The notes beneath the pieces are model-generated. The model had not been told where the DNA came from. It made no database searches and saw nothing but the letters and a program-made list of their open reading frames with translations. A stretch of DNA of 12,114 nucleotides from an uncultured bacterium (lineage in GTDB: Bacteria; CALINM01), in NCBI GenBank assembly GCA_938045315.1, contig CALINM010000084.1, positions 1 to 12,114 on the forward strand, written 5' to 3'. Below are positions 1 through 12,114 of this stretch, piece by piece. The position numbers and the translations under genes were made by a program. How positions within the stretch are numbered: the stretch's first letter is position 1; each line of letters starts with the position of its first letter.

Positions 1-456
1 GATATTGCTGTCCCCAGGGACATTGATCCTAAGGTAAACGATCTTGATAATGTATTTGTTTATGATATCGATGATTTGCAAAATGTTGTGGATTCTAACC
101 TTAAGGAAAGGCAGAAAGAAGCGGAAAGGGCAGAGTTAATAATAAATGAAGAATTAAAAGCCTTCAAAGAATGGATGGGCTCTCTCACAGTTAAGCCCAT
201 AATGTTATCTTTGCGAAAATATTTTGAAAATATTAAAGAAAGGGAGTTCATAGAAGCTAAAAGGAAATTGTCTCATTTAAATGAAGAAGATATTAAAGTT
301 GTTGAAGCACTTCTTACTGCAGTAATAAATAAAACACTTCATAAACCTACAGTTTTTTTAAAAAATATTTCTTCAAAGAATAATGCTTATTTGTACTTGG
401 ATGCAATAAAAGAACTTTTTGACTTAAAAGGAGACTATGGTGAAAAAGAAAATTAG
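1..456 (+). CDS. hemA: Glutamyl-tRNA reductase, C-terminal 151 residues (5' end outside window)
   Basis: This is the 3' part of the enzyme that reduces glutamyl-tRNA(Glu) with NADPH to glutamate-1-semialdehyde, the first committed step of C5-pathway tetrapyrrole synthesis in the cytoplasm. The reading frame is open from base 1 and begins with DIAVPRDIDP, followed by VFVYDIDDLQNVV; both are hallmarks of the end of the NADP-binding domain and the start of the long spinal helix in this family. The rest is the charged helical dimerisation domain, ending with the typical ALLTAVINKTLHKPTVFLK stretch. The catalytic cysteine and substrate domain lie upstream of the window. The stop codon (454-456) lies inside hemC, giving a 20-bp overlap that suggests translational coupling. 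Family assignment is firm; promoter and any regulation are not visible. Confidence 0.95.
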   Translation, partial: DIAVPRDIDPKVNDLDNVFVYDIDDLQNVVDSNLKERQKEAERAELIINEELKAFKEWMGSLTVKPIMLSLRKYFENIKEREFIEAKRKLSHLNEEDIKVVEALLTAVINKTLHKPTVFLKNISSKNNAYLYLDAIKELFDLKGDYGEKEN

Positions 457-1369
457 ATTGGGAACAAGGGGTAGCCAGCTAGCGCTATGGCAAGCAAATT
501 TTATAAAAGAAAGCCTTGAAAAATTGTATAATGTGGAAATTGAAATAGTAAAAATCAAAACAAAGGGTGATAAGATTCTTGATGTAGCCCTTGCTAAAGT
601 TGGTGGGAAGGGGCTTTTTGTTAAAGAATTAGAAGATGCTCTTCTGGATGGTAAGATTGATTTTGCTGTACATAGTATGAAAGATGTACCAGTAGAGCTT
701 CCATCGGGTCTTCATATTGCTGCTATTACAAAAAGGGAAGATCCAAGAGATGTATTTATATCAAAAAAATACAATTCCTTAACTGATCTTCCAGATGGTG
801 CTTTGGTTGGAACGAGTAGTTTGAGAAGACAATGCCAGATATTAGCACTAAGGCCAGATCTTAAAGTAGAGGTCTTGAGAGGCAATGTGGAAACAAGAAT
901 AAGAAAGATGAAAGAAGGGGTATATGATGCAGTAATTTTAGCTTATGCTGGGGTTAAAAGATTAAATCTGCTTGAATATGTAAAGGAGATTATTCCGGAA
1001 ACAATATCACTTCCAGCGATAGGGCAGGGAGCTTTAGGTGTTGAGTGCAGAGTAGATAATAAGGAGGTCAATAATTTATTGAAATCGATAAACGATGAAG
1101 AAACATCTTATTGTATTAAGGCTGAAAGAGCTTTTTTAAGAGTTCTTCAGGGAGGTTGTCAGGTTCCAATTGGTGCGTATGCTAAAGTAGATCACAGAAA
1201 ATTGATTATCAAAGGGCTTGTGGGTAGTTTAAATGGAAACAAAATAATTAAAGAAACAGTTTCAGGTGACGTAGAGGATTGTGAAGCTTTAGGGCAAAAG
1301 CTTGCGTACGTAATTCTTAATAAAGGTGGAAAGGAGATTTTAGAAGAGGTTTATGGAAGGGAAATTTAA
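437..1369 (+). CDS. hemC: Hydroxymethylbilane synthase (porphobilinogen deaminase)
   Basis: This cytoplasmic enzyme polymerises four porphobilinogen molecules into the linear tetrapyrrole hydroxymethylbilane. The 310-residue length is normal. Visible landmarks are the N-terminal RLGTRGSQLALWQ, the catalytic-Asp region FAVHSMKDVP (Asp83, equivalent to E. coli Asp84), GTSSLRRQ and RGNVETRIRKM for substrate phosphate/carboxylate binding, and LQGGCQVPIGAYA, in which Cys241 carries the dipyrromethane cofactor (E. coli Cys242). The ATG at 437 has a good Shine-Dalgarno sequence (AAAAGGAG, 426-433) inside hemA. The product is handed to the uroporphyrinogen-III synthase domain encoded by the next gene, two bases downstream. 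All key residues are present and nothing looks degenerate. Confidence 0.98.
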   Translation: MVKKKIRLGTRGSQLALWQANFIKESLEKLYNVEIEIVKIKTKGDKILDVALAKVGGKGLFVKELEDALLDGKIDFAVHSMKDVPVELPSGLHIAAITKREDPRDVFISKKYNSLTDLPDGALVGTSSLRRQCQILALRPDLKVEVLRGNVETRIRKMKEGVYDAVILAYAGVKRLNLLEYVKEIIPETISLPAIGQGALGVECRVDNKEVNNLLKSINDEETSYCIKAERAFLRVLQGGCQVPIGAYAKVDHRKLIIKGLVGSLNGNKIIKETVSGDVEDCEALGQKLAYVILNKGGKEILEEVYGREI

Positions 1370-1371
1370 AT

Positions 1372-2877
1372 ATGTTTGGTAAAGTTTATCTTGTTGGGGC
1401 AGGACCGGGTGATCCAGAACTAATTACGATCAAAGGTAAAAGATGCTTAGAGATAGCAGATGTTGTAATCTATGATTATCTTGCAAATCCTGAGCTACTA
1501 AAATATGCTCCAAGAGCAGAAAAAATATATGTGGGGAAGAAAAGTGCTAATCATACATTAGATCAAGAAAAAATAAATGAGCTTCTTATTGAAAAAGCAA
1601 AAGAAAATAAAATTATTGTTAGGTTGAAAGGAGGAGACCCCTTTATTTTTGGTAGGGGTGGTGAAGAAGCTTTAGCATTAAAAAAACATGGGATAGATTT
1701 TGAAGTGGTTCCGGGGATTACTTCAGGTTTTGCAGCCCCTCTTTATGCTGGTATTCCAGTAACAATGAGGGGCATAAATTCTACAATAGCTTTTGCTACA
1801 GGACATGAAACAGAGGATAAAGAATTCAGTTTGATAGATTGGGCTGCTCTTTCAAAGATGGGAACAATTATTTTCTATATGGGTGTAAAAAATATGCCCC
1901 TTATTGTGGAGAATTTACTTAAGTTTGGCAAAAGTAAGGATACACCTGTAGCGTTAATAAGATGGGCTACTTATCACAATCAGGAGGTCTTAATTGGTAA
2001 CTTAAGCAATATTATAGAGAAAATGAAAACTGTAAACTTCAAAGCGCCAGCTATTATTGTAATAGGTGATGTCGTTAACTTGAGGAATGAATTAATGTGG
2101 TTTGAGAGAAGACCGCTTTTTGGAAAAACAATATTGGTTACAAGAACTAAGGAACAGTCAGGGAAATTGAGTGTTAAACTGAGAGATTTGGGAGCAAATG
2201 TTATTGAGATACCAGCTATTGAGATTGTACCACCTGATAGCTGGGAAGATGTGGATAGGAGTATAAATGAAATTGGCAAGTATGATTATGTAATTTTTAC
2301 TAGCACAAATGGTGTTAAATATTTTTTTGAAAGACTTAGGGAATTAAAAAAAGATATAAGAGTTCTTAATGGGCTTAAAATTTGTGCCATTGGCTCAGCA
2401 ACTAAAGAGGCAATTGAAGAATTAGGGCTAATTGTTGAGATTGTTCCCCATGAATATGTTGCTGAATCAGTAATCGAAAAGTTAAAACAGTATGAGATAA
2501 AGGGTAAGAGATTTCTTCTCCCAAGGGCAAAGGTAGCAAGAGATCTTATTCCAGAAAGTATAAAACAGTTAGGCGGTTATATTGATGTTGTGACTGTTTA
2601 TCAAACTGTAAAACCTGATACAAGTAAAAAATCAATAGAAGAAGTTTTTGAAAAAGACATGATTGATATTATTACATTTACAAGTTCTTCAACAGTAAAA
2701 AACTTTTTTGATTTGTTGGGTGATGTTAAAATATCATCGAAAGTAAAATTCGCTTCCATTGGACCTGTTACTTCAAAAACTCTTAGAAGTTTTGGTATTC
2801 AGCCATCATGTGAAGCAAAGGTTTATAATATCGATGGGCTTGTTGATGCGATAATCAACATGAACTTAAAAGATTAA
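1372..2877 (+). CDS. cobA/hemD: Fused uroporphyrinogen-III C-methyltransferase / uroporphyrinogen-III synthase
   Basis: This bifunctional 501-residue protein joins two consecutive pathway steps. Residues 1 to about 243 are a SAM-dependent uroporphyrinogen-III methyltransferase (SUMT): VYLVGAGPGDPELIT at the N-terminus, VRLKGGDPFIFGRGGEEAL at 83-101, VVPGITSGFAAPLYAGIPVT at 112-131 and APAIIVIGDVV at 225-235. Residues from about 250 to 501 are uroporphyrinogen-III synthase: GKTILVTRTKEQ, YDYVIFTSTNGVKYFF, LLPRAKVARDLIP and DIITFTSSSTVKNFF, ending with SIGPVTSKTLRSFGI. The second half cyclises and inverts ring D of hydroxymethylbilane; the first half methylates the product to precorrin-2, feeding siroheme or cobalamin. 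Such fusions are known in several anaerobic lineages. The start is the ATG two bases after the hemC stop, preceded by GGAAGGG at 1355-1361. Uroporphyrinogen III also leads to heme, so the fusion does not force all flux into methylation. Confidence 0.96.
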   Translation: MFGKVYLVGAGPGDPELITIKGKRCLEIADVVIYDYLANPELLKYAPRAEKIYVGKKSANHTLDQEKINELLIEKAKENKIIVRLKGGDPFIFGRGGEEALALKKHGIDFEVVPGITSGFAAPLYAGIPVTMRGINSTIAFATGHETEDKEFSLIDWAALSKMGTIIFYMGVKNMPLIVENLLKFGKSKDTPVALIRWATYHNQEVLIGNLSNIIEKMKTVNFKAPAIIVIGDVVNLRNELMWFERRPLFGKTILVTRTKEQSGKLSVKLRDLGANVIEIPAIEIVPPDSWEDVDRSINEIGKYDYVIFTSTNGVKYFFERLRELKKDIRVLNGLKICAIGSATKEAIEELGLIVEIVPHEYVAESVIEKLKQYEIKGKRFLLPRAKVARDLIPESIKQLGGYIDVVTVYQTVKPDTSKKSIEEVFEKDMIDIITFTSSSTVKNFFDLLGDVKISSKVKFASIGPVTSKTLRSFGIQPSCEAKVYNIDGLVDAIINMNLKD

Positions 2878-2883
2878 AGGAGG
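2877..2883 (+). promoter_or_regulatory. Consensus Shine-Dalgarno site of hemB
   Basis: AAGGAGG, a perfect anti-16S match, begins on the last base of the cobA/hemD stop codon and lies six bases before the hemB ATG. It fixes the hemB start and suggests that hemB is translated efficiently despite being last in the operon. Confidence 0.85.
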
Positions 2884-2889
2884 AGAAAT

Positions 2890-3879
2890 ATGCAATTTCC
2901 CGAGTTAAGATTAAGAAGGCTTAGAAAATCACCAACAATAAGGGATATGGTTAGAGAAACAATGCTTACATCTAATGATTTTATTTATCCCCTATTTATT
3001 ATTCACGGTAAGAATAAAAAAGAAGAGATAAAATCAATGCCCGGCATTTATAGATACTCCGTAGACAGGATAATGGAAGAAGTTGATGAGATTTACGAAT
3101 TAGGGATTCCCGCAGTAATATTATTTGGAATACCTGAAAAAAAAGATGAACATGGTAGTTCTGCTCTTGATGATAGCGGTGAAGTTCAACAGGCTGTTAA
3201 AAAAATAAAAAAGAAGTATCCTGATATGGTCGTAATAACTGATGTGTGTTTGTGTGAATATACGTCTCATGGGCATTGTGGGATATTAACAAAAAGTGGT
3301 TATGTGGATAATGATGCAACAATAGAAGTTCTTGCAAAAGAGGCTCTTTCCCATGCAAGAGCTGGTGCTGATATTGTGGCACCCTCTGATATGATGGATG
3401 GTAGAGTTCTGGCAATAAGGGAGAAATTAGACGAGCATGGGTATGAGAATGTGGCAATTCTATCCTACTCTGTAAAATATGCATCGGCATTTTATGGCCC
3501 CTTTAGGGATGCAGCGGAGTCTGCTCCAGCCTTCGGTGATAGAAAAAGTTATCAAATGGATCCAGCAAATATAAGGGAAGCTATCAGGGAAGCAAGTCTT
3601 GATATAGATGAAGGTGCAGACATGATAATGGTAAAACCCGCTCTTTCTTATCTTGATGTAATTTCTTTACTTGCAGAAGAGTATCCCTTTCCACTGGTTG
3701 CCTACAATGTATCTGGTGAGTATTCCATGGTAAAGGCTGCTGGTAAAATGGGTTGGATTGATGAAAAAAAAGTTATGATGGAAATACTTTTATCTATAAA
3801 GAGAGCTGGAGCAGATTTAATAATTACTTATCATGCAAAGGAAGCGGCAAAACTTTTAAGGGAGAATAAAAAGTTTTAA
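2890..3879 (+). CDS. hemB: Porphobilinogen synthase (delta-aminolevulinic acid dehydratase), zinc-type
   Basis: This cytoplasmic enzyme condenses two 5-aminolevulinate molecules into porphobilinogen, the substrate of HemC. The 329-residue length is standard. The Schiff-base lysines are visible as Lys196 in [15 protein letters not shown] and Lys249 in [14 protein letters not shown]. The metal site [14 protein letters not shown] supplies Cys120, Cys122 and Cys130, the triad of zinc-dependent enzymes, rather than the aspartate-rich version of magnesium-only enzymes. [20 protein letters not shown] is the usual 5-ALA-binding and oligomerisation region. It is the last gene of the hem cluster. No separate terminator follows it: the pyr promoter begins at the next base, so read-through would run into the pyr attenuator. 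Confidence 0.98.
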
Positions 3880-3908
3880 TTGACATATGTAATTTTTACA
3901 ATTAAAAT
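3880..3908 (+). promoter_or_regulatory. Sigma-70-type promoter of the pyr operon
   Basis: A perfect -35 box TTGACA (3880-3885) is separated by exactly 17 bases from TAAAAT (3903-3908), a five-of-six match to the -10 consensus. The -35 begins on the base after the hemB stop. Transcription should start around 3914-3918; the first purines in range are G3917 and A3918. It is the only strong promoter-like pair I found in an intergenic position of the window, and it fits the change of pathway from heme to pyrimidine. This is read from sequence only. Confidence 0.8.
3888..3900. repeat. Short inverted repeat in the pyr promoter spacer
   Basis: TGTAA-TTT-TTACA is a perfect 5-bp inverted repeat lying wholly between the -35 and -10 boxes, where a bound repressor would block polymerase. 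A second one, CAATT-AA-AATTG (3899-3910), covers the -10. In AT-rich DNA both could arise by chance. I do not match either to a known regulator. Confidence 0.25.
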
Positions 3909-3917
3909 TGAATTTTG

Positions 3918-3986
3918 ATGAAAAAAACTATTTTTGAAAGACCATGTTCAAAAAACCTCCCACAAGGGAGGTTTTTTTATGAGTAA
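3918..3986 (+). CDS. Putative 22-residue pyr leader peptide overlapping the pyrR start
   Basis: An ATG at 3918 opens a 22-codon frame beginning MKKTIFERPC. It runs through the whole attenuator hairpin and stops with TAA at 3984-3986, eight bases inside pyrR in another frame. A ribosome translating it would melt the hairpin, prevent termination and arrive at the pyrR ATG for reinitiation. The weak point is initiation: the ATG sits at or within a few bases of the predicted transcript start with no Shine-Dalgarno, so it would be leaderless or nearly so. A U-run (3931-3935) inside the ORF could serve as a UTP-sensitive pause. The role is inferred by analogy with leader-peptide attenuation of E. 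coli pyrBI. It could be a chance ORF. Confidence 0.35.
   Translation: MKKTIFERPCSKNLPQGRFFYE
3944..3982 (+). CDS. Alternative 12-residue leader ORF ending in an ATGA overlap with pyrR
   Basis: A second short frame, ATG at 3944 reading MFKKPPTREVFL, also crosses the hairpin and stops at TGA 3980-3982, forming an ATGA overlap with the pyrR ATG. The same overlap type joins carB-greA and greA-lipoprotein here. Only a poor Shine-Dalgarno candidate (GAAAG, 3936-3940, three bases from the ATG) precedes it. It competes with the 22-codon frame as the coupling ORF; at most one is likely to matter. Confidence 0.25.
   Translation: MFKKPPTREVFL
3950..3978 (+). terminator. Intrinsic terminator/attenuator immediately before pyrR
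   Basis: A perfect 12-bp stem pairs 3950-3961 with 3966-3977 around an ACAA tetraloop. The inner part is CCTCCC/GGGAGG and the outer part is six A:U pairs. Seven U residues (3972-3978) follow the GC-rich core, which is the form of a rho-independent terminator. It lies between the pyr promoter and pyrR, so it would attenuate the operon and could also end hem transcripts reading through. The 3' arm is the pyrR ribosome-binding site, so the same helix can also block translation. I see no convincing antiterminator helix and no clear match to the Bacillus-type PyrR-binding loop. Confidence 0.85.
3966..3971 (+). promoter_or_regulatory. pyrR Shine-Dalgarno site embedded in the terminator stem
   Basis: GGGAGG lies seven bases upstream of the ATG at 3979 and is the only good ribosome-binding site for pyrR. 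All six bases are paired in the attenuator helix, so pyrR translation should need the helix to be opened, for example by a ribosome on a leader ORF. This site also decides the pyrR start against an in-frame TTG at 3934. Confidence 0.8.
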
Positions 3987-4518
3987 AAACGAAAAAAAAG
4001 TTACCATAATTGATGAAAAAACCTTTCCCCGTGTTATTAATCGAATTGCCCATGAAATTATGGAAAAAAATACAAATTTAAACGATTTAGTTTTAATAGG
4101 TATCAAAAGGGGTGGCAGTTTATTAAAGGATAGAATAAAAAATGCCATAAAAAATATGGAAGGTGTTAATGTTTTATCAGGTGATATTGATATTACAATG
4201 TATAGAGATGATATATTTAAAATCAGTCCAAAACACAAAATTGAAACCACCAATATACCATTTAGTTTAGATGATAAAAATGTTGTATTAATAGATGATG
4301 TTCTGTTCACAGGGAGGACTGTAAGGGCTGCAATTGATGCCCTATTTGATTTTGGAAGGCCGAGGAGAATACAGCTTGCTGTTCTCATTGATAGGGGTCA
4401 TAGAGAATTGCCAATACAGGCTGATTTTGTTGGAAAAGTTGTACCTACTGCAAGAAAAGAAATAGTTGAAGTTATGTTTAAGGAAGTGGATGGAAAGGAT
4501 GGGGTGGTTTTGAGGTAA
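3979..4518 (+). CDS. pyrR: PyrR family pyrimidine operon regulator / uracil phosphoribosyltransferase-like protein
   Basis: PyrR proteins bind pyr leader RNA in a UMP/UTP-dependent way and often have uracil phosphoribosyltransferase activity. The 179 residues match the family length (about 180). The PRPP-binding loop VVLIDDVLFTGRTVRAAIDAL lies at 102-122, and RIAHEIM (22-28), GDIDITMYRDD (68-78), DRGHRELPI (138-146) and GKVVPTA (152-158) are family signatures. Compared with B. subtilis PyrR, as I recall it, RNA-face positions Thr18, Thr41 and Arg146 are replaced by Asn21, Arg44 and Gln147, while His22, His140 and Lys152 are kept as His25, His141 and Lys153. The start at 3979 is chosen for its Shine-Dalgarno spacing and family alignment; an upstream in-frame TTG at 3934 lacks a ribosome-binding site. 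It heads the operon it presumably regulates, and pyrB starts five bases after it. Confidence 0.93.
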   Translation: MSKNEKKVTIIDEKTFPRVINRIAHEIMEKNTNLNDLVLIGIKRGGSLLKDRIKNAIKNMEGVNVLSGDIDITMYRDDIFKISPKHKIETTNIPFSLDDKNVVLIDDVLFTGRTVRAAIDALFDFGRPRRIQLAVLIDRGHRELPIQADFVGKVVPTARKEIVEVMFKEVDGKDGVVLR

Positions 4519-4523
4519 ATAAA

Positions 4524-5468
4524 ATGGTAAACAAAGTGAATTGGTTACATAAAGATCTTATTTCACTTGAACCTTTGTCCAGGGAAGAAATTATATTTTT
4601 GCTTGAAACAGCAAAATCTTTTGAAGAGGTTTTAGAAAGGGATGTAAAAAAAGTACCCACGTTAAGAGGAAAAAGTATTCTAACCCTCTTTTATGAACCA
4701 TCAACACGAACAAGAACATCCTTTGAGATGGCTGCAAAAATCCTTTCTGCAGATACTATTAATATATCTGTATCAACAAGCAGTGTAAGTAAAGGTGAAA
4801 CACTTCTTGATACAGTTAGGAATTTAGAAGCAATGAGTGTGGATGTGATAATAATAAGACATAGCTTTTCAGGGGCATCAGAATTTGTATCAAAAAGGGT
4901 TAAAGCATCAGTTATAAATGCTGGTGATGGGAGGCATGAACATCCAACTCAAGCGTTACTTGATTTGTTAACAATATGGGAATATAAGAAAACATTAACA
5001 GGTTTAAAAGTAGCAATAGTTGGAGATATACTTCACAGCAGAGTAGCCAGATCCAATTTATTTGCCCTCAGGAAATTAGATAATGAAGTTAGGTTTGTTG
5101 GTCCCGCAACCCTTGTACCCGAAGATTTCAAAAAGTTAGGAGCAAAGATATTTTATAATCTTGAAGAAGGTCTTTATGATGTGGATGTAGTAATGGCACT
5201 TCGAATACAAAAGGAGAGAATTGGAGATGGTTTTTATCCCACAGAGAGAGAATATGCAAAGTATTTTTCGATTAATAGAGAAACAATCAACTTTGCTAAA
5301 AGGGATACAATTATTATGCATCCCGGTCCTGTTAATAGAGGGCTGGAGATATCATCAGATGTTCTTGAAGATAAAAGGTGTGTTGTTCTTAATCAGGTAA
5401 CTAAAGGTGTTGCTGTTAGGATGGCTGTTTTGTACCTTTTATTATCGGGAGGTAAAGTTGAAAATTAA
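4524..5468 (+). CDS. pyrB: Aspartate carbamoyltransferase catalytic subunit
   Basis: PyrB transfers the carbamoyl group from carbamoyl phosphate to aspartate, giving N-carbamoyl-aspartate, the committed step of pyrimidine synthesis. At 314 residues it has catalytic-chain length. The carbamoyl-phosphate loop FYEPSTRTRTSFE is at 56-68, the 80s-type loop SVSKGET at 87-93, GDGRHEHPTQALLDLLT at 134-150 and the aspartate-side MHPGPVNRG at 265-273. The ATG lies five bases after the pyrR stop, with GAGG (4512-4515) at the end of pyrR as ribosome-binding site. No regulatory subunit gene pyrI lies in the window, so allosteric control through PyrI cannot be assumed. Its neighbours supply its substrate (carAB) and use its product (pyrC). 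The pyrC start lies inside its last codons. Confidence 0.98.
   Translation: MVNKVNWLHKDLISLEPLSREEIIFLLETAKSFEEVLERDVKKVPTLRGKSILTLFYEPSTRTRTSFEMAAKILSADTINISVSTSSVSKGETLLDTVRNLEAMSVDVIIIRHSFSGASEFVSKRVKASVINAGDGRHEHPTQALLDLLTIWEYKKTLTGLKVAIVGDILHSRVARSNLFALRKLDNEVRFVGPATLVPEDFKKLGAKIFYNLEEGLYDVDVVMALRIQKERIGDGFYPTEREYAKYFSINRETINFAKRDTIIMHPGPVNRGLEISSDVLEDKRCVVLNQVTKGVAVRMAVLYLLLSGGKVEN
5447..5460 (+). promoter_or_regulatory. Ribosome-binding site and TTG start of pyrC inside pyrB
   Basis: GGGAGG (5447-5452) is followed after five bases by TTG (5458-5460). This sets the pyrC start 51 bases downstream of an in-frame ATG at 5407. That ATG has no such site and would add 17 residues that are merely pyrB sequence read in another frame. 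Confidence 0.8.
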
Positions 5469-6735
5469 AATAAATAATTTAACCATAGTTACCTCTTCAG
5501 GATTATTTCGAAAAAATTTGTTTATAGATAAGGGAATTATAAAAAAAATTTCTGATAAACCAATTTCGTCGAGGGGCGTTGATTTTCTTATTGACAATGA
5601 AAACTTAATGGTCTTTCCAGGTTTTTTAGATATGCATGTGCATTTAAGAGAACCAGGGTTTGAATATAAGGAGGATATCGAGTCAGGTCAGAGGGCTGCT
5701 TTAAGTGGAGGTTTTACAGCTATTGCCTGTATGGCTAATACCAATCCTGTGAATGATAATTCTGCAGTGACGCATTATATAAAATGTAAATCTAATGAGA
5801 CGGGTATCCCTGTTGATGTACATCCTATTGCAGCCATTACTGTAGGTCTTAAGGGTGAAAAAATAGTTGAGATGGGTGATTTAAAAAAAGCAGGTGCAGT
5901 TGGTTTTTCTGATGATGGTTATCCCGTTGAAAATTCAGATATCTTGAGAAAGGCGATGGAATATTCAAAGTGTTTCAATATCCCCATAATCTGTCATTCT
6001 GAAGAAAAAAAGTTAAGTAAAGAGGGGCAGATAAATGAAGGAGAGGTATCATTAAAATTAGGTTTAAAAGGTATACCTAAAGAAGCTGAAATAATAGGGA
6101 TTTATAGAGATATAATGCTTGCAAAACTCACAAAAGCAAAAGTACATATAGCTCATGTTAGCACAAAAGATTCTGTTGAATTAATTAGAAGGGCAAAGAA
6201 AGAGGGAATCAATATATCTTGTGAGACATGCCCACAATATTTCTTATTAACAGAAGAAGAGGTGCTTGGTTATAATACATTTGCTAAAGTAAATCCACCA
6301 CTCAGAACAAAAGAAGATGTCATGGCAATTAGAGAAGGTTTAAAAGATGGGACTATTGATGTTATCGCATCAGACCATGCTCCTCATCATATTGATGAGA
6401 AGGATGGGGAGTTTGAGTTAGCACCCTTTGGTATGATTGGTTTGCAAACTATGATACCTTTATCATTAGAACTTGTAAGACTTGGAGTTTTAGATTTTCA
6501 AGTTTTAGCAGAGAAGCTATCAAGGAAGCCACATCAAATATTAGGTTTAAAACCTCCAGTGATAAAAGAGGGAGAGGAGGCATGTTTAACTATAATTGAT
6601 CCCCACTACGAGTGGGTATTGGAAAAGGATAGGATAAGATCAAAGAGTTACAATACTCCATTTCTTGGAAAAAAGATGAAAGGAAAGGCAGTATATACAA
6701 TAAAGGGAGGAAAAGTTTTTGAAATTGAAGACTAA
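5458..6735 (+). CDS. pyrC: Dihydroorotase (type I, active form)
   Basis: PyrC cyclises N-carbamoyl-aspartate to dihydroorotate at a zinc site in the cytoplasm. From the TTG start it has 425 residues, the normal size for the Bacillus/Aquifex-type enzyme. Metal and catalytic ligands are all present: His60 and His62 in [10 protein letters not shown], Asp152/Asp153 in GFSDDGYPV, His180 in PIICHSEE, His233 in IAHVSTKDS and Asp306 in IASDHAPHH. It should therefore be catalytically active, unlike the inactive pseudo-dihydroorotases of some ATCase complexes. In Aquifex and Thermus relatives dihydroorotase associates with PyrB, and the 11-bp gene overlap here would suit coordinated synthesis. The complex is inference. 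carA starts 17 bases before its stop codon. Confidence 0.96.
6704..6721 (+). promoter_or_regulatory. Ribosome-binding site and TTG start of carA inside pyrC
   Basis: AGGGAGG (6704-6710) precedes TTG (6719-6721) by eight bases. A second in-frame TTG at 6725 is 14 bases away, less favourable. The next in-frame start codon lies well inside the conserved domain, so a TTG start is effectively required. Confidence 0.75.
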
Positions 6736-7852
6736 AAAAAGAGCAGTCTTGTTATTAAAAGATGGTCGGTTCTTTTCTGGTTATAATTTTGGGGCTGAGG
6801 GAGAAGCGGGGGGAGAAGTTGTTTTTACTACATCTATGTGTGGATATCAGGAAATTCTTACAGATCCATCCTATGATAAGCAGATAGTTACGATGACTTA
6901 CACACAGATTGGTAATTATGGTTTTAATGAAGAGGATATGGAATCCAGAAAGTCCTTTGTTGCTGGATTTGTAGTAAGAGAATATCAAGATTACCCGAGC
7001 AATTATAGAAGTAAGGGGAGTTTAGACGAATTCTTAAAGAGATACAATATAGTTGGCATAGAAGGAATTGATACCAGGGCATTAACCGCCCATTTGAGGG
7101 AAAAAGGTGCTATGAATGGTATCATTTCTACAATTGAATTTGATCGGAAAAAACTAATGGAAAAGTTAGAAAAAGTACCTTCCATGGTTGGTCTCGATCT
7201 TGTTAGGTATGTGAGTACTGACCAACCTTACAGCTGGTCGCAGGGACTGTGGACACTGGGAAAAGGGTACATAGAAAAGGATGATGGGAAATATTTTGTA
7301 GTAGCCTATGACTATGGTGTTAAATTTAATATTTTGAGGAATCTGGTTAATGTGGGGTTTAGAGTTTTAGTAGTACCCGCAGATTTTCCTGCAGAAGAAG
7401 TTTTAAAGTTAAATCCCCATGGTGTCTTTTTGTCAAATGGTCCAGGAGATCCAGAGCCAGTAAAATATGCGATAGAGAATGTAAAAAAGTTAATTACTAA
7501 AAAACCAATATTTGGTATATGTTTAGGGCATCAAATACTAGGGCTTGCCTTAGGTGGAAAGACTTTTAAACTAAAATTTGGTCATAGAGGAGGAAATCAG
7601 CCTGTTAAAGATTTAACTACAGGCAAGGTTGAAGTAACATCTCAAAATCATGGCTTTGCAGTAGATATAGATTCCCTGGGTGGTAGAGCTGAAGTAACAC
7701 ATATCAATTTAAATGATAATACTGTAGAGGGTTTAAGACATAGGGATTTTCCTATTTTTTCTGTGCAATATCATCCTGAAGCATCTCCGGGGCCACATGA
7801 TGCTTCTTATCTTTTTAAAAGATTTTATGATTTGATAGAAAGCACGAAATAA
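6719..7852 (+). CDS. carA: Carbamoyl-phosphate synthetase, small (glutaminase) subunit
   Basis: CarA hydrolyses glutamine and passes ammonia through a tunnel to CarB. The 377-residue length is standard. The N-terminal CarA domain shows [20 protein letters not shown] (32-51), where the typical TGMxGYQE appears as TSMCGYQE. The C-terminal class I glutamine amidotransferase domain has LSNGPGDP (238-245), nucleophile Cys268 in [16 protein letters not shown], and the rest of the triad, His352 and Glu354, in [12 protein letters not shown]; the E. coli equivalents are Cys269, His353 and Glu355. It starts with TTG inside pyrC and is followed after 24 bases by carB, its obligate partner. In this operon its expression should follow pyrimidine need, although carbamoyl phosphate also serves arginine synthesis. 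Confidence 0.97.
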
Positions 7853-7876
7853 AATTTATATTGGAGATATAAAAAG

Positions 7877-10800
7877 ATGCCTAAAAGAACAGACATCAAG
7901 AGTATCTTTGTAATTGGTTCTGGACCTATTGTGATAGGTCAGGCTTGTGAGTTCGATTATTCTGGAACTCAAGCAGTAAAAGCTCTGAAACAGGAAGGAT
8001 ATAAAGTAATACTTGTTAATTCTAATCCAGCAACAATTATGACTGATCCTGAACTTGCAGATGTAACATATATTGAGCCACTAACAGTGGATTATCTCGA
8101 AGAAATAATTAAAAAGGAAAGACCCGATGCACTTTTGCCAACTTTGGGGGGGCAAACGGCATTAAATTTAACTCTTTTTCTCCATGAAAGGGGAGTTCTT
8201 GAAAAATATAAAGTTAAATTAATAGGAGCAAACATTGAAGCTATAAAAAAGGGTGAGGATAGGGAGCTATTTAAAAAATCTATGGAAAAAATTGGATTGA
8301 AGGTCCCGAAAAGTGGATTAGCAACGAGTATGAATGAAGCTATGGAAGTAATAAAATATGTTAAGTTCCCAGCAATTATTCGCCCCGCTTTTACCCTTGG
8401 TGGTACAGGTGGTAGCACAGTTTATAACATGGAAGAATATGAGAGAATGGTCAAATGGGGGCTTGATTTAAGTCCAGTGCATCAGGTCCTTATAGAAGAA
8501 TCTGTTATTGGTTGGAAGGAATTTGAACTGGAAGTTATGAGAGATAAGATGGACAATGTTGTTATTATCTGTTCCATTGAGAATTTCGATCCCATGGGTA
8601 TACATACAGGTGATAGCATTACTGTTGCACCTGCTCAAACCCTTTCTGATAAAGAGTATCAGATAATGAGGGATGCGGCTATTAAAATTATAAGAGAAGT
8701 AGGTGTTGACACAGGGGGATCAAATATTCAGTTTGCTATAAATCCAAAAAATGGAGAAATGGTTGTTATAGAAATGAACCCTCGTGTTTCAAGAAGTTCT
8801 GCTTTAGCATCAAAGGCAACAGGGTATCCCATTGCAAAAATTGCTGCAAAACTTGCAATTGGTTATACCCTCGATGAAATAAAAAATGATATCACCGGTG
8901 AGACACCTGCCTCTTTTGAACCTGCGCTGGATTATGTGGTTGTCAAAATTCCAAGATTTGCTTTTGAAAAGTTTCCAAAGGCTGATTCTAGACTGGGCAC
9001 ACAGATGAAATCTGTTGGTGAAGTAATGGCTATTGGTAGAACATTTAAAGAAGCTCTTCAAAAGGCAATAAGATCTCTTGAAATTGATAGTTATGGATTC
9101 GATAATAAGATTTTGGGGAATTTAAATATAGATGAGAAAAAGAAAATCATCGTTGATAGATTAAGAAATCCAGATGCTGAAAGGCTCTGGTTTATAGGTG
9201 AGGCTTTCAGGCACGGGATGGATTTAGATGAAGTACATGAACATACACAAATAGACAAATGGTTTCTAAAAAATATTCAAGAGATTATAGAATTCGAACA
9301 GGAACTTGTAAAGTTAACCCAGGATAGAGAATTTAGTTTAGAAAGCCTCTCAACCGATGTCATCAGGGAAGCTAAAAAAATGGGTTTTTCTGATAGAAGG
9401 CTTGCTAAAATTTTTGGTGTCGATGAGATTAAAATTCGAGAATTGAGAAAAAGAAGAAACGTATGGCCAGTATATAAGATGGTTGATACCTGTGCTGCTG
9501 AGTTTAGAGCAAAGACACCTTATTTATATTCTACTTTTGAAGAAGAAGATGAAGCGAAACCTACGGAGAGAAAAAAGGTTATTATATTAGGTGGTGGACC
9601 AAATAGAATTGGTCAGGGGATAGAGTTTGATTACTGCTGCGTTCATGCTGTTTTTGCTCTTAAAGAAGAAGGATATGAGACAATTATGATAAACTGTAAT
9701 CCAGAAACTGTCAGTACTGATTATGATACTTCCGATAGGCTTTATTTTGAGCCTTTAACCTACGAAGATGTTCTAACAACAATAGAGAGAGAAAAGCCAG
9801 AAGGTATCATAGTTCAATTTGGTGGTCAGACTCCATTAAAACTTGCTGTTCCTCTTGAAAAAGCTGGAGTTAGAATACTTGGAACAAGTCCCGATAGTAT
9901 AGATAAAGCTGAAGATAGGGAAAGATTTAGAGAGATACTATTAAAGTTGGGTTTAAAACAGGCAGAAAGTGGGATTGCCCGTTCAGAAGAAGAAGCAATA
10001 ATAGTGGCTGAAAAGATTGGATATCCAGTGATGGTTAGACCTTCATATGTTTTAGGTGGAAGGGCGATGGAAATTGTTTACGATAAAGCAAGCCTTAAAA
10101 GATATATGAAAGAGGCTGTAAGGGCTTCTTCAGAACACCCTGTTTTAATCGATAAGTTTTTAAAGGATGCAACAGAAATTGACGTCGATGCTATAAGTGA
10201 TGGCAGCATCTGTGTGATAGGTGGCATAATGGAACATATAGAAGAGGCAGGGGTACATTCAGGTGATAGTGCCTGTCTTATTCCCCCTTTTTCTCTTAAG
10301 GAAGAAACTATTAGTGAAATTATGAGGCAGACAAAACTTTTAGCAAAGGAATTAAATGTTATTGGTCTAATGAATGTACAGTTTGCAATAAAAGATGATG
10401 AAATTTATATTTTAGAGGTTAATCCAAGAGCATCTCGAACCATACCATTTGTGAGTAAAGCTATAGGAGTACCTCTTGCTAAACTGGCAGCAAAATGTAT
10501 GTTAGGCAAGACATTAAAAGATTTAGGATTTACAAAAGAAGTGATCCCCTCATATTTTTCAGCCAAAGAAGCAGTATTTCCATTTATAAAATTCAGAGGT
10601 GTGGATACAGTTTTAGGACCGGAAATGAAGTCTACAGGTGAGGTTATGGGATTAGCTGATAACCCATATCTTGCATTTGCCAAAGCGCAGATTGCTGCAG
10701 GTAATAGCATTCCCCTTAAGGGTACAGTTTTTATTAGTGTAAAGGATGATGATAAAAAAAATGTAGTTGAAATTGCTAAGCTTTTAAAAGAATATGGTTT

Positions 10801-11134
10801 TAAAATATTATCTACGAAGGGGACTTCAAAGTACCTCAAAGCACATGGAATAGAGAATGAAACAGTCTTAAAAGTTATAGAAGGTAGACCAAATATTGTA
10901 GACATGATAAAGAATGGAGAAGTAGATTTAATAATTAATACCACTTTTGGTGTAAAAGAATTAGAGGATTCATACTTAATAAGAAGGACTGCTTTGGAAA
11001 TTGGGGTCCCCTATTTTACCACTATTTCTGCGGCTAAGGCAGGATGTTTTGCAATCCCAGAACTTTTAAAAGGTAATACAAAGGTTTTACCTATAAAAGA
11101 TTATTATCGTTCTGGAAAGGGGGTAGAAAAATGA
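7877..11134 (+). CDS. carB: Carbamoyl-phosphate synthetase, large subunit
   Basis: CarB makes carbamoyl phosphate from bicarbonate, two ATP and ammonia delivered by CarA. At 1085 residues it has the full two-halves architecture (E. coli 1073). The first synthetase half has [17 protein letters not shown] at 14-30 and an ATP-grasp domain (about 128-335) with [12 protein letters not shown] at 169-180. An oligomerisation region covers about 400-555. The second half repeats the plan with [17 protein letters not shown] at 572-588 and [15 protein letters not shown] at 721-735. The C-terminal allosteric domain (about 945-1085) keeps residues corresponding to the E. coli nucleotide site: Thr980 and Thr983 in STKGTS, Lys999, and the Asn-Thr-Thr at 1021-1023. 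UMP feedback inhibition is therefore plausible. The ATG follows GGAG (7863-7866). Its stop overlaps the greA start by four bases. Confidence 0.98.
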
Positions 11135-11601
11135 ATTATCCAATGACTAAAGAGTGTTATGAAAAGTTAAAAATGGAATTGGAACATTTAAAAAAAGTTG
11201 AAAGGCCAAAGGTTATAAAGGACATTGCCGAAGCAAGGGCTCATGGAGATCTTTCTGAAAATGCTGAATATGAGGCAGCTAAAGAAAGACAGGGGATGAT
11301 AGAGGCAAAAATAAGAGAATTAGAAGGTAAATTGAGCAGGGCTGTAATAGTTGATCTTTCGAAAGTATCAACAGATAAAGTTGCTTTTGGTTTAAAGGTT
11401 AAGATTCTTGATTTAAATACTGATGAAGAATTCACATATCAGATAGTTTCTGAAGATGAAGCCGATCTTAGTATTGGTAAAATTTCATATACTTCACCCA
11501 TAGGCAGAGCCTTAATAGGCAAGAAAGAGGGTGATATTGTAAAAGTTCAGGTACCGATAGGCATAAAAGAGTTTGAGATTTTATCTATTGAAAAACCATG
11601 A
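11131..11601 (+). CDS. greA: Transcription elongation factor GreA
   Basis: GreA enters the secondary channel of RNA polymerase and promotes cleavage of backtracked transcripts, rescuing stalled elongation. The 156-residue length fits (E. coli 158). The N-terminal coiled-coil finger carries [20 protein letters not shown] at 35-54, whose tip acids Asp40 and Glu43 correspond to E. coli Asp41 and Glu44. The C-terminal FKBP-like domain has [18 protein letters not shown] at 118-135. The start ATG overlaps the carB stop as ATGA and is preceded by AAAGGGGG at 11116-11123. Its place after carB is, to my knowledge, shared with some Geobacter-type genomes. It probably gets at least part of its transcription from the pyr promoter; I saw no separate promoter. 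Confidence 0.97.
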
Positions 11602-12114
11602 AATATTTAATTAAATTTTTGTCACTCATACTTTATATAGTTTTATTGGCTTGTAATAACAGGGGATATTCTTTTGATAAACCAGAAATAAAAATTAAAA
11701 ATGAAATTAAAAATGAATATCTAGGGCTATTTTTTCAGGAAAGGAAGATAGGATATTTTCATAGTAGCGTTCATGATGGTTTATGGGGGGATAAAAAAAT
11801 ATTCTATTTATATGGAAATGCATTGATCAGAATTAAGTTTGAAAAGGATATAATTAACACAATCTTAAATGAAGAAATTATTATTGATGGATTTTCAAAA
11901 AAGACAATTTATTTCAGTTATAGTCAACAGATTGGTGATTCAGATCTAAAGGTAAAAGGAATAAATAAAAATAATAAAATTCTGTTAAAAATTATGTCTG
12001 GTGGTGAAGTGCAAAATTTAGATATGGAAGAAGAATATATTCCTCTTGCATCTGCAGGATTTTTAATATGGCAAGAGGGGATTAAAGAGGGGATAATAAA
12101 GAATTTTAAAGTTT
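11598..12114 (+). CDS. Predicted lipoprotein of unknown function, N-terminal 172 residues (3' end outside window)
   Basis: The frame opens at ATG 11598, overlaps the greA stop as ATGA, and stays open to the window edge. A short Lys-flanked hydrophobic segment (residues 2-18) ends in LLAC, a lipobox with Cys19 as the lipidation site, so this should be an exported, membrane-anchored protein; Asn20 at +2 gives no obvious inner-membrane retention signal. The mature part is charged and AT-rich in codon choice. It contains EYLGLFFQERKIGYFHSS, resembling the 'GIYxxGxKIGY' strand that I associate with the N-terminal region of some transglutaminase-like periplasmic proteins. The diagnostic Cys-His-Asp part would lie beyond the window, so this is a weak suggestion. 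The GAAAAACC upstream is a poor ribosome-binding site, so translation probably depends on coupling with greA. Confidence 0.8.
   Translation, partial: MKYLIKFLSLILYIVLLACNNRGYSFDKPEIKIKNEIKNEYLGLFFQERKIGYFHSSVHDGLWGDKKIFYLYGNALIRIKFEKDIINTILNEEIIIDGFSKKTIYFSYSQQIGDSDLKVKGINKNNKILLKIMSGGEVQNLDMEEEYIPLASAGFLIWQEGIKEGIIKNFKV
11694..11717 (+). repeat. Perfect 12-bp tandem duplication in the lipoprotein gene
   Basis: ATTAAAAATGAA occurs twice in tandem, encoding the repeated residues Ile-Lys-Asn-Glu just after the lipobox linker. It keeps the reading frame and looks like a recent slippage duplication in the tolerant linker between the lipid anchor and the folded domain. Confidence 0.8.

Follow-up and report, generated by a model that had tools for sequence, protein, structure and literature searches.

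The leader of a pyrimidine operon from an uncultured bacterium raises the question of how these genes could be controlled when the Shine-Dalgarno sequence (SD) of the first gene, pyrR, lies inside a terminator-like hairpin. The window analyzed here is the whole stretch of 12,114 nucleotides (contig CALINM010000084.1, positions 1-12,114, forward strand; assembly GCA_938045315.1; GTDB CALINM01). A hem cluster lies upstream of the leader, and the gene order downstream is pyrR-pyrB-pyrC-carA-carB-greA:

up to 3879: hem cluster 5' of pyrR, hemA(fragment)-hemC-cobA/hemD-hemB; hemB ends at 3879
3979-4518, + strand: pyrR, uracil phosphoribosyltransferase / pyr regulator homologue (NCBIfam NF003549, E 1.2e-71; homologous to solved PyrR structures)
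4524-5468, + strand: pyrB, aspartate carbamoyltransferase
5407-6735, + strand: pyrC, dihydroorotase (ORF limits; the real start is probably downstream of 5407)
6719-7852, + strand: carA
7877-11134, + strand: carB
11131-11601, + strand: greA, final gene of the putative operon within the window

ATG 3979 is the sole plausible start of pyrR, because the next methionine is codon 28, within the conserved domain. The phylum sample consists of three genomes: that of the window, the congeneric MAG SKW176 (L031; PyrR 88% identical to that of the window) and L003 (72%). The gene greA ends the pyr gene run both in the window and in the L031 genome. GreA acts on polymerase pausing, which would matter for an attenuator that reads polymerase speed.

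The SD of pyrR is part of a perfect 12-bp stem that adjoins the gene. The elements of the leader are as follows:

3880-3908, + strand: predicted sigma-70 promoter (TTGACA 3880-3885, 17-nt spacer, TAAAAT 3903-3908)
3914-3918, + strand: probable transcription start, from the position of the -10 element
3918-3986, + strand: leader ORF of 22 codons, encoding MKKTIFERPCSKNLPQGRFFYE* and running through the hairpin
3950-3961, + strand: 5' arm of the terminator / SD-sequestering hairpin, AAAAAACCTCCC
3962-3965, + strand: hairpin loop ACAA (TGCA in L031, TACG in L003)
3966-3977, + strand: 3' arm, GGGAGGTTTTTT, identical in all three genomes
3966-3971, + strand: pyrR SD GGGAGG, inside the 3' arm, 7 nt from the ATG
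3972-3978, + strand: 7-T run, terminator U tract and also the SD-to-ATG spacer

Positions 3950-3981 thus read AAAAAACCTCCC, ACAA, GGGAGGTTTTTT, a single T (3978) and the pyrR ATG (3979-3981). The preliminary description had noticed the stem (3950-3961/3966-3977) with the SD in its 3' arm, the U run as a spacer followed at once by the ATG, and a leader ORF ending at the start of pyrR, and these features are confirmed; the leader stop TAA (3984-3986) falls within the first codons of pyrR. The stem is nearly symmetrical (A6...T7), and six of the seven U's make up its U side; its G-C core is six pairs long and includes one U-A step. The pyrR ribosome-binding site (RBS) therefore sits inside the 3' side of a hairpin resembling an intrinsic terminator, the arrangement that defines a dual terminator/RBS hairpin.

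The hairpin is stable and rare. The leader RNA folds at -19.3 kcal/mol (z = -2.8), and the hairpin by itself at -16.6 kcal/mol. In computed folds of the window leader with the hairpin in place, the SD is unpaired with a probability of less than 0.01, and removal of the 5' arm raises this to 0.97-0.99 across the first four bases of the SD core. The window contains no other perfect 12-bp stem with a loop of 3-8 nt, and 0.01 such stems would be expected per window by chance (Markov-simulated windows). The pattern CCTCC-loop-GGAGG-TTTTT occurs at a single place in the whole 1.86-Mb genome, the pyrR leader (reversed control, 0); the match appears on both strands because the pattern is nearly palindromic. 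A simple terminator scan of the window did not call the hairpin, since the stem swallows the T run. An Rfam scan of the leader gave no family at the gathering score and no known riboswitch aptamer, and the sub-threshold matches were chance ones.

The leader ORF appears to be almost leaderless, judging from its short spacing from the predicted -10 element. The promoter-like site starts directly 3' of the hemB stop and matches the consensus at 11 of 12 positions, in a type of scan that also returns chance sites. With the usual 6-8 nt between the -10 and the start, transcription would begin 0-4 nt 5' of the leader ATG, and the pyrR ATG would follow after a leader of about 61-65 nt. The distance from the end of the -10 to the leader ATG is 9 nt in the window and L031, and 11 nt in L003 (TAATAT reading). 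Sites of the form TTGACA...TANNNT with an ATG 5-10 nt downstream are 3-8 times commoner than in the reversed control (genomes G000, G001 and G002). Almost leaderless genes are therefore plausible in this group, hinting at many such mRNAs in the phylum. The leader ORF lacks an SD, so its translation would need initiation that is either leaderless or weak. U's are not especially frequent in the leader, and therefore there is no evident UTP pause site; the window leader has a single U5 run, which is conserved in neither L031 nor L003. Three other candidates were set aside: a short ORF at 3944-3982 (MFKKPPTREVFL*) that is absent from the relatives, a pyrBI-like reiterative start AAUUUU (AATTTT at 3911 is too near the -10 and is not conserved), and amino-acid attenuation, as no repeated pre-hairpin codons are common to the three leaders.

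The promoter, a leader ATG exactly at -61 from pyrR, an open 22-codon ORF and the hairpin are common to all three genomes of the phylum. The L003 promoter-like site is at a similar position. The 21-mer GGGAGGTTTTTTTATGAGTAA, in which the leader stop overlaps the pyrR start, is identical in the three genomes, as is the T run. The leader peptides of the relatives are MNIVALKYSNIENLPAGRFFYE (L031) and MIKEILITHSELKTSYGRFFYE (L003). Between the window and L031 the body of the leader is identical at 8 of 29 positions, and four-fold sites of pyrR are saturated (17/50). In the same comparison, the 5' arm is identical at 11 of 12 positions and the 3' arm plus U run at 13 of 13; the promoter is conserved at 24 of 29 positions, versus 11 of 30 immediately upstream. 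Retention of the 3' arm could reflect its SD role alone. On these alignments, however, the hairpin is under selection, because the 5' arm, with no evident job but pairing, has been kept amid a saturated leader. The preliminary description had proposed aligning related genomes: the SD has stayed in the hairpin in both relatives, while compensatory stem changes are absent across the three genomes, the stem core being invariant.

Conservation of the leader ORF concerns its length and frame. L003 has a shorter stem (10 bp, TACG loop) and nonetheless keeps its ATG at -61, so length, and hence reading frame, has been held. The joint chance of open leader frames in all three genomes is 0.025, which as evidence for the ORF is weak alone; it is suggestive, not strong. 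The first half of the peptide, 5' of the hairpin, is not conserved among the three, as expected if translation alone matters. In L031 the gene upstream of the leader encodes a KefB/KefC-like antiporter/transporter instead of hemB, and therefore the promoter-ORF-hairpin unit travels with pyrR and is not simply a hem terminator.

The three leaders lack the PyrR-binding loop that precedes pyrR in many other bacteria. Upstream regions of 127 pyrR loci were surveyed, mostly one per family across Bacteria. Only in the three phylum members does the terminator T run directly adjoin the pyrR ATG while the hairpin arm contains the SD; L107 and L117 were also flagged for this layout and were rejected for doubtful in-frame TTG codons. 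At many other loci the loop has the form CCUUUAA-stem-UCCNGNGAG-stem-NAAGG. A covariance model built from 35 loci (ten base pairs, 97% of cells paired; both sides changed in 44 cells versus 12.6 in shuffles) matches about half of the 124 other pyrR loci, training sequences included. It has no credible match in the three phylum leaders with filters off, and none at E below 2 or above noise in the three genomes (150 candidates per genome were scored in the first genome scan). The space between the predicted start and the leader ATG has no room for such a loop. Binding of PyrR to the terminator hairpin itself was also considered and dropped; the loop consensus is absent and the model gives no match. 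The preliminary description was thus right in setting this layout apart from the pyr leaders of Bacillus, as there is neither a PyrR-binding loop nor a conserved antiterminator.

The PyrR sequences agree with this distribution. All three phylum PyrRs have Gln at the position of R146 of B. subtilis PyrR, a residue which from PyrR mutagenesis we take to have a part in contacting RNA. This position is basic in 25 of 27 PyrRs from loop-bearing loci versus 3 of 20 from loop-less loci (Fisher p 6e-8, overstated because the sequences are related). A basic residue here is a possible simple sequence marker for PyrRs that may bind RNA.

Where the loop is present, its AAGG arm provides a leader ORF with its SD. 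This ORF enters the terminator in 25 of the 26 scorable loop-bearing leaders and passes the T run in 20 of them. An AAGG arm serving as the SD of a terminator-crossing ORF of 14-45 codons is found before pyrR in many phyla, for example at L006:2100-2130 (-), L014:2106-2136 (-), L069:325-355, L097:342-372 and L103:324-355. The Thermus-type attenuator is apparently widespread. In two loop-bearing leaders, L103:324-450 and L032:2919-3010, the ORF stop overlaps the pyrR ATG (ATGTCTAA and ATGTCTAG), which is the hand-over geometry of the window too.

We give about an even chance to the reading that 3880-3986 is a minimal ribosome-coupled attenuator, similar to those of pyrBI and Thermus, which controls pyrR-pyrB-pyrC-carA-carB-greA through a dual terminator/SD hairpin. 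Transcription would begin at the leader ATG or within a few bases of it. With no ribosome behind RNA polymerase, the hairpin would form and transcription would terminate about 60 nt from the start; in any read-through RNA the hairpin would bury the pyrR SD. A ribosome translating the 22-codon ORF close behind the polymerase would occupy the 5' arm and prevent the hairpin. It would end at the UAA overlapping the pyrR AUG, adjoining the freed SD, and could pass on to pyrR. As in E. coli pyrBI, pyrimidines would most likely be sensed through the UTP pool, which sets the speed of the polymerase, rather than through PyrR bound to its usual loop. Control by PyrR through its usual route is unlikely, given that the binding loop and the space for it are both missing. 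A point against coupled attenuation is that few nucleotides are available for loading the leader ribosome before the hairpin is made. A bolder version, which we hold tentatively and consider rather doubtful, is that an operon encoding PyrR has lost PyrR control at the RNA level, and that a leaderless 22-codon ORF and one hairpin would by themselves be the whole pyrimidine switch, in about 60 nt. A single ribosome would block termination, unmask the SD and re-initiate at pyrR, with UTP-set polymerase speed as the only sensor.

Four other explanations deserve consideration, two of which keep a regulator or a competing RNA structure. It is unlikely that the same hairpin attenuates under the control of PyrR or another protein, which would bind a non-canonical leader site and block the leader start or stabilize the hairpin, as a diverged Thermus-type system. 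The position of pyrR at the head of the operon fits this idea, as does the fact that about half of the other surveyed loci have the loop with its AAGG arm as leader-ORF SD. However, the covariance model finds no loop here and the R146 position holds Gln. Each of the three leaders can also fold into a small hairpin 5' of the terminator, but these hairpins differ in sequence and place, and none stands out from shuffled sequences (fractions 0.13, 0.19 and 0.05). A Bacillus-type antiterminator/terminator switch is disfavoured and highly improbable. It would use pairing of UUUUUGAA with UUCAAAAA, which engages the A's of the 5' arm and is possible in the window alone; L031 and L003 have no pairing of this kind that would compete with their terminators, and the PyrR-binding loop that this switch calls for is missing.

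The remaining two explanations accept the hairpin but give it a smaller role. One is unregulated packing, in which a terminator of read-through from the upstream operon doubles by chance as the pyrR SD and the leader ORF is accidental. The hairpin is 70 nt 3' of hemB, and its near symmetry is as in bidirectional terminators. Nevertheless we consider this reading unlikely, as L031 keeps the whole unit behind a gene other than hemB, the predicted promoter lies between hemB and the hairpin, and the ATG at -61 with its open frame is kept in three genomes. The other is mainly a translational lock, with the hairpin governing pyrR translation via coupling to the leader ORF and termination being minor. 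The computed pairing of the SD, which is complete in the hairpin and lost without the 5' arm, and the overlap of the leader stop with the pyrR ATG are both in its favor; the six-pair core (five G-C) with an immediate, invariant 7-T run is that of a textbook intrinsic terminator, and the lock on its own seems quite unlikely.

If the ribosome-coupled reading is right, the leader would be among the shortest attenuators known to us. It would combine three known tricks in about 60 nt: ribosome-coupled termination, SD sequestration in a terminator, and a leaderless leader ORF. It would also suggest that PyrR can persist as an enzyme after loss of its RNA target, and it could serve as a compact part for testing transcription-translation coupling.

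The closest relatives of this leader are the Thermus and pyrBI attenuators. For Thermus strain ZO5 it was reportedly proposed in 1997 that a translating ribosome prevents the terminator before pyrR. Like the window, the Thermus type has a short leader ORF across a terminator ahead of pyrR. It differs in that a PyrR-binding loop overlaps the SD of the leader ORF, while the window has neither loop nor leader SD, and in that the pyrR SD is usually 3' of the terminator instead of within it. In E. coli pyrBI, low UTP slows the polymerase, so that the leader ribosome can suppress the attenuator. The pyrBI leader is much longer, with an SD and a U-rich pause region. Leader translation suppresses the attenuator terminator, and tight coupling prevents termination (PMC5021804). 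As in the window, the leader ORF (pyrL) spans the attenuator, and, as proposed for the window, an RNA-binding regulator is not needed. The SD of the pyrBI structural gene is outside the terminator arm, whereas the operon in the window begins with pyrR and has the pyrR SD in the arm.

The pyr attenuators of Bacillus subtilis consist of a PyrR-stabilized anti-antiterminator and an antiterminator (PMC7430163). They share with the window a pyrR-led operon and a terminator in the leader, but neither the anti-antiterminator nor the conserved antiterminator was found in the window, L031 or L003 leaders. By the binding-loop criterion the window leader falls outside both the Bacillus and Thermus types; on its anatomy it would work like the Thermus and pyrBI switches. 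The trpL attenuator of Sinorhizobium meliloti uses tryptophan-codon attenuation and competing hairpins, without SD overlap. Its leader RNA starts at the leader-ORF ATG and is leaderless (PMC7298713), while in the window a start near the leader ATG is deduced from the -10 spacing. Dual expression platforms of riboswitches resemble the window leader in that their terminator lies so near the gene that the hairpin holds the RBS on its 3' side (Barrick and Breaker 2007, PMC2258182). They have an aptamer, whereas the window leader has no Rfam aptamer and would be controlled, if at all, by its leader ORF. The preliminary description knew of no described system with this layout. As stated, that view is not supported, as this RBS-in-terminator class has been described and terminator-crossing leader ORFs are common before pyrR. 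The combination in about 60 nt without a PyrR loop was not found elsewhere among the surveyed pyrR loci. The single parts are all known: RBS-containing terminators, leader ORFs across pyr terminators, and leaderless attenuator ORFs. Overall, the window leader seems to be an extremely compact form of switches already known, and not a switch of a new kind.
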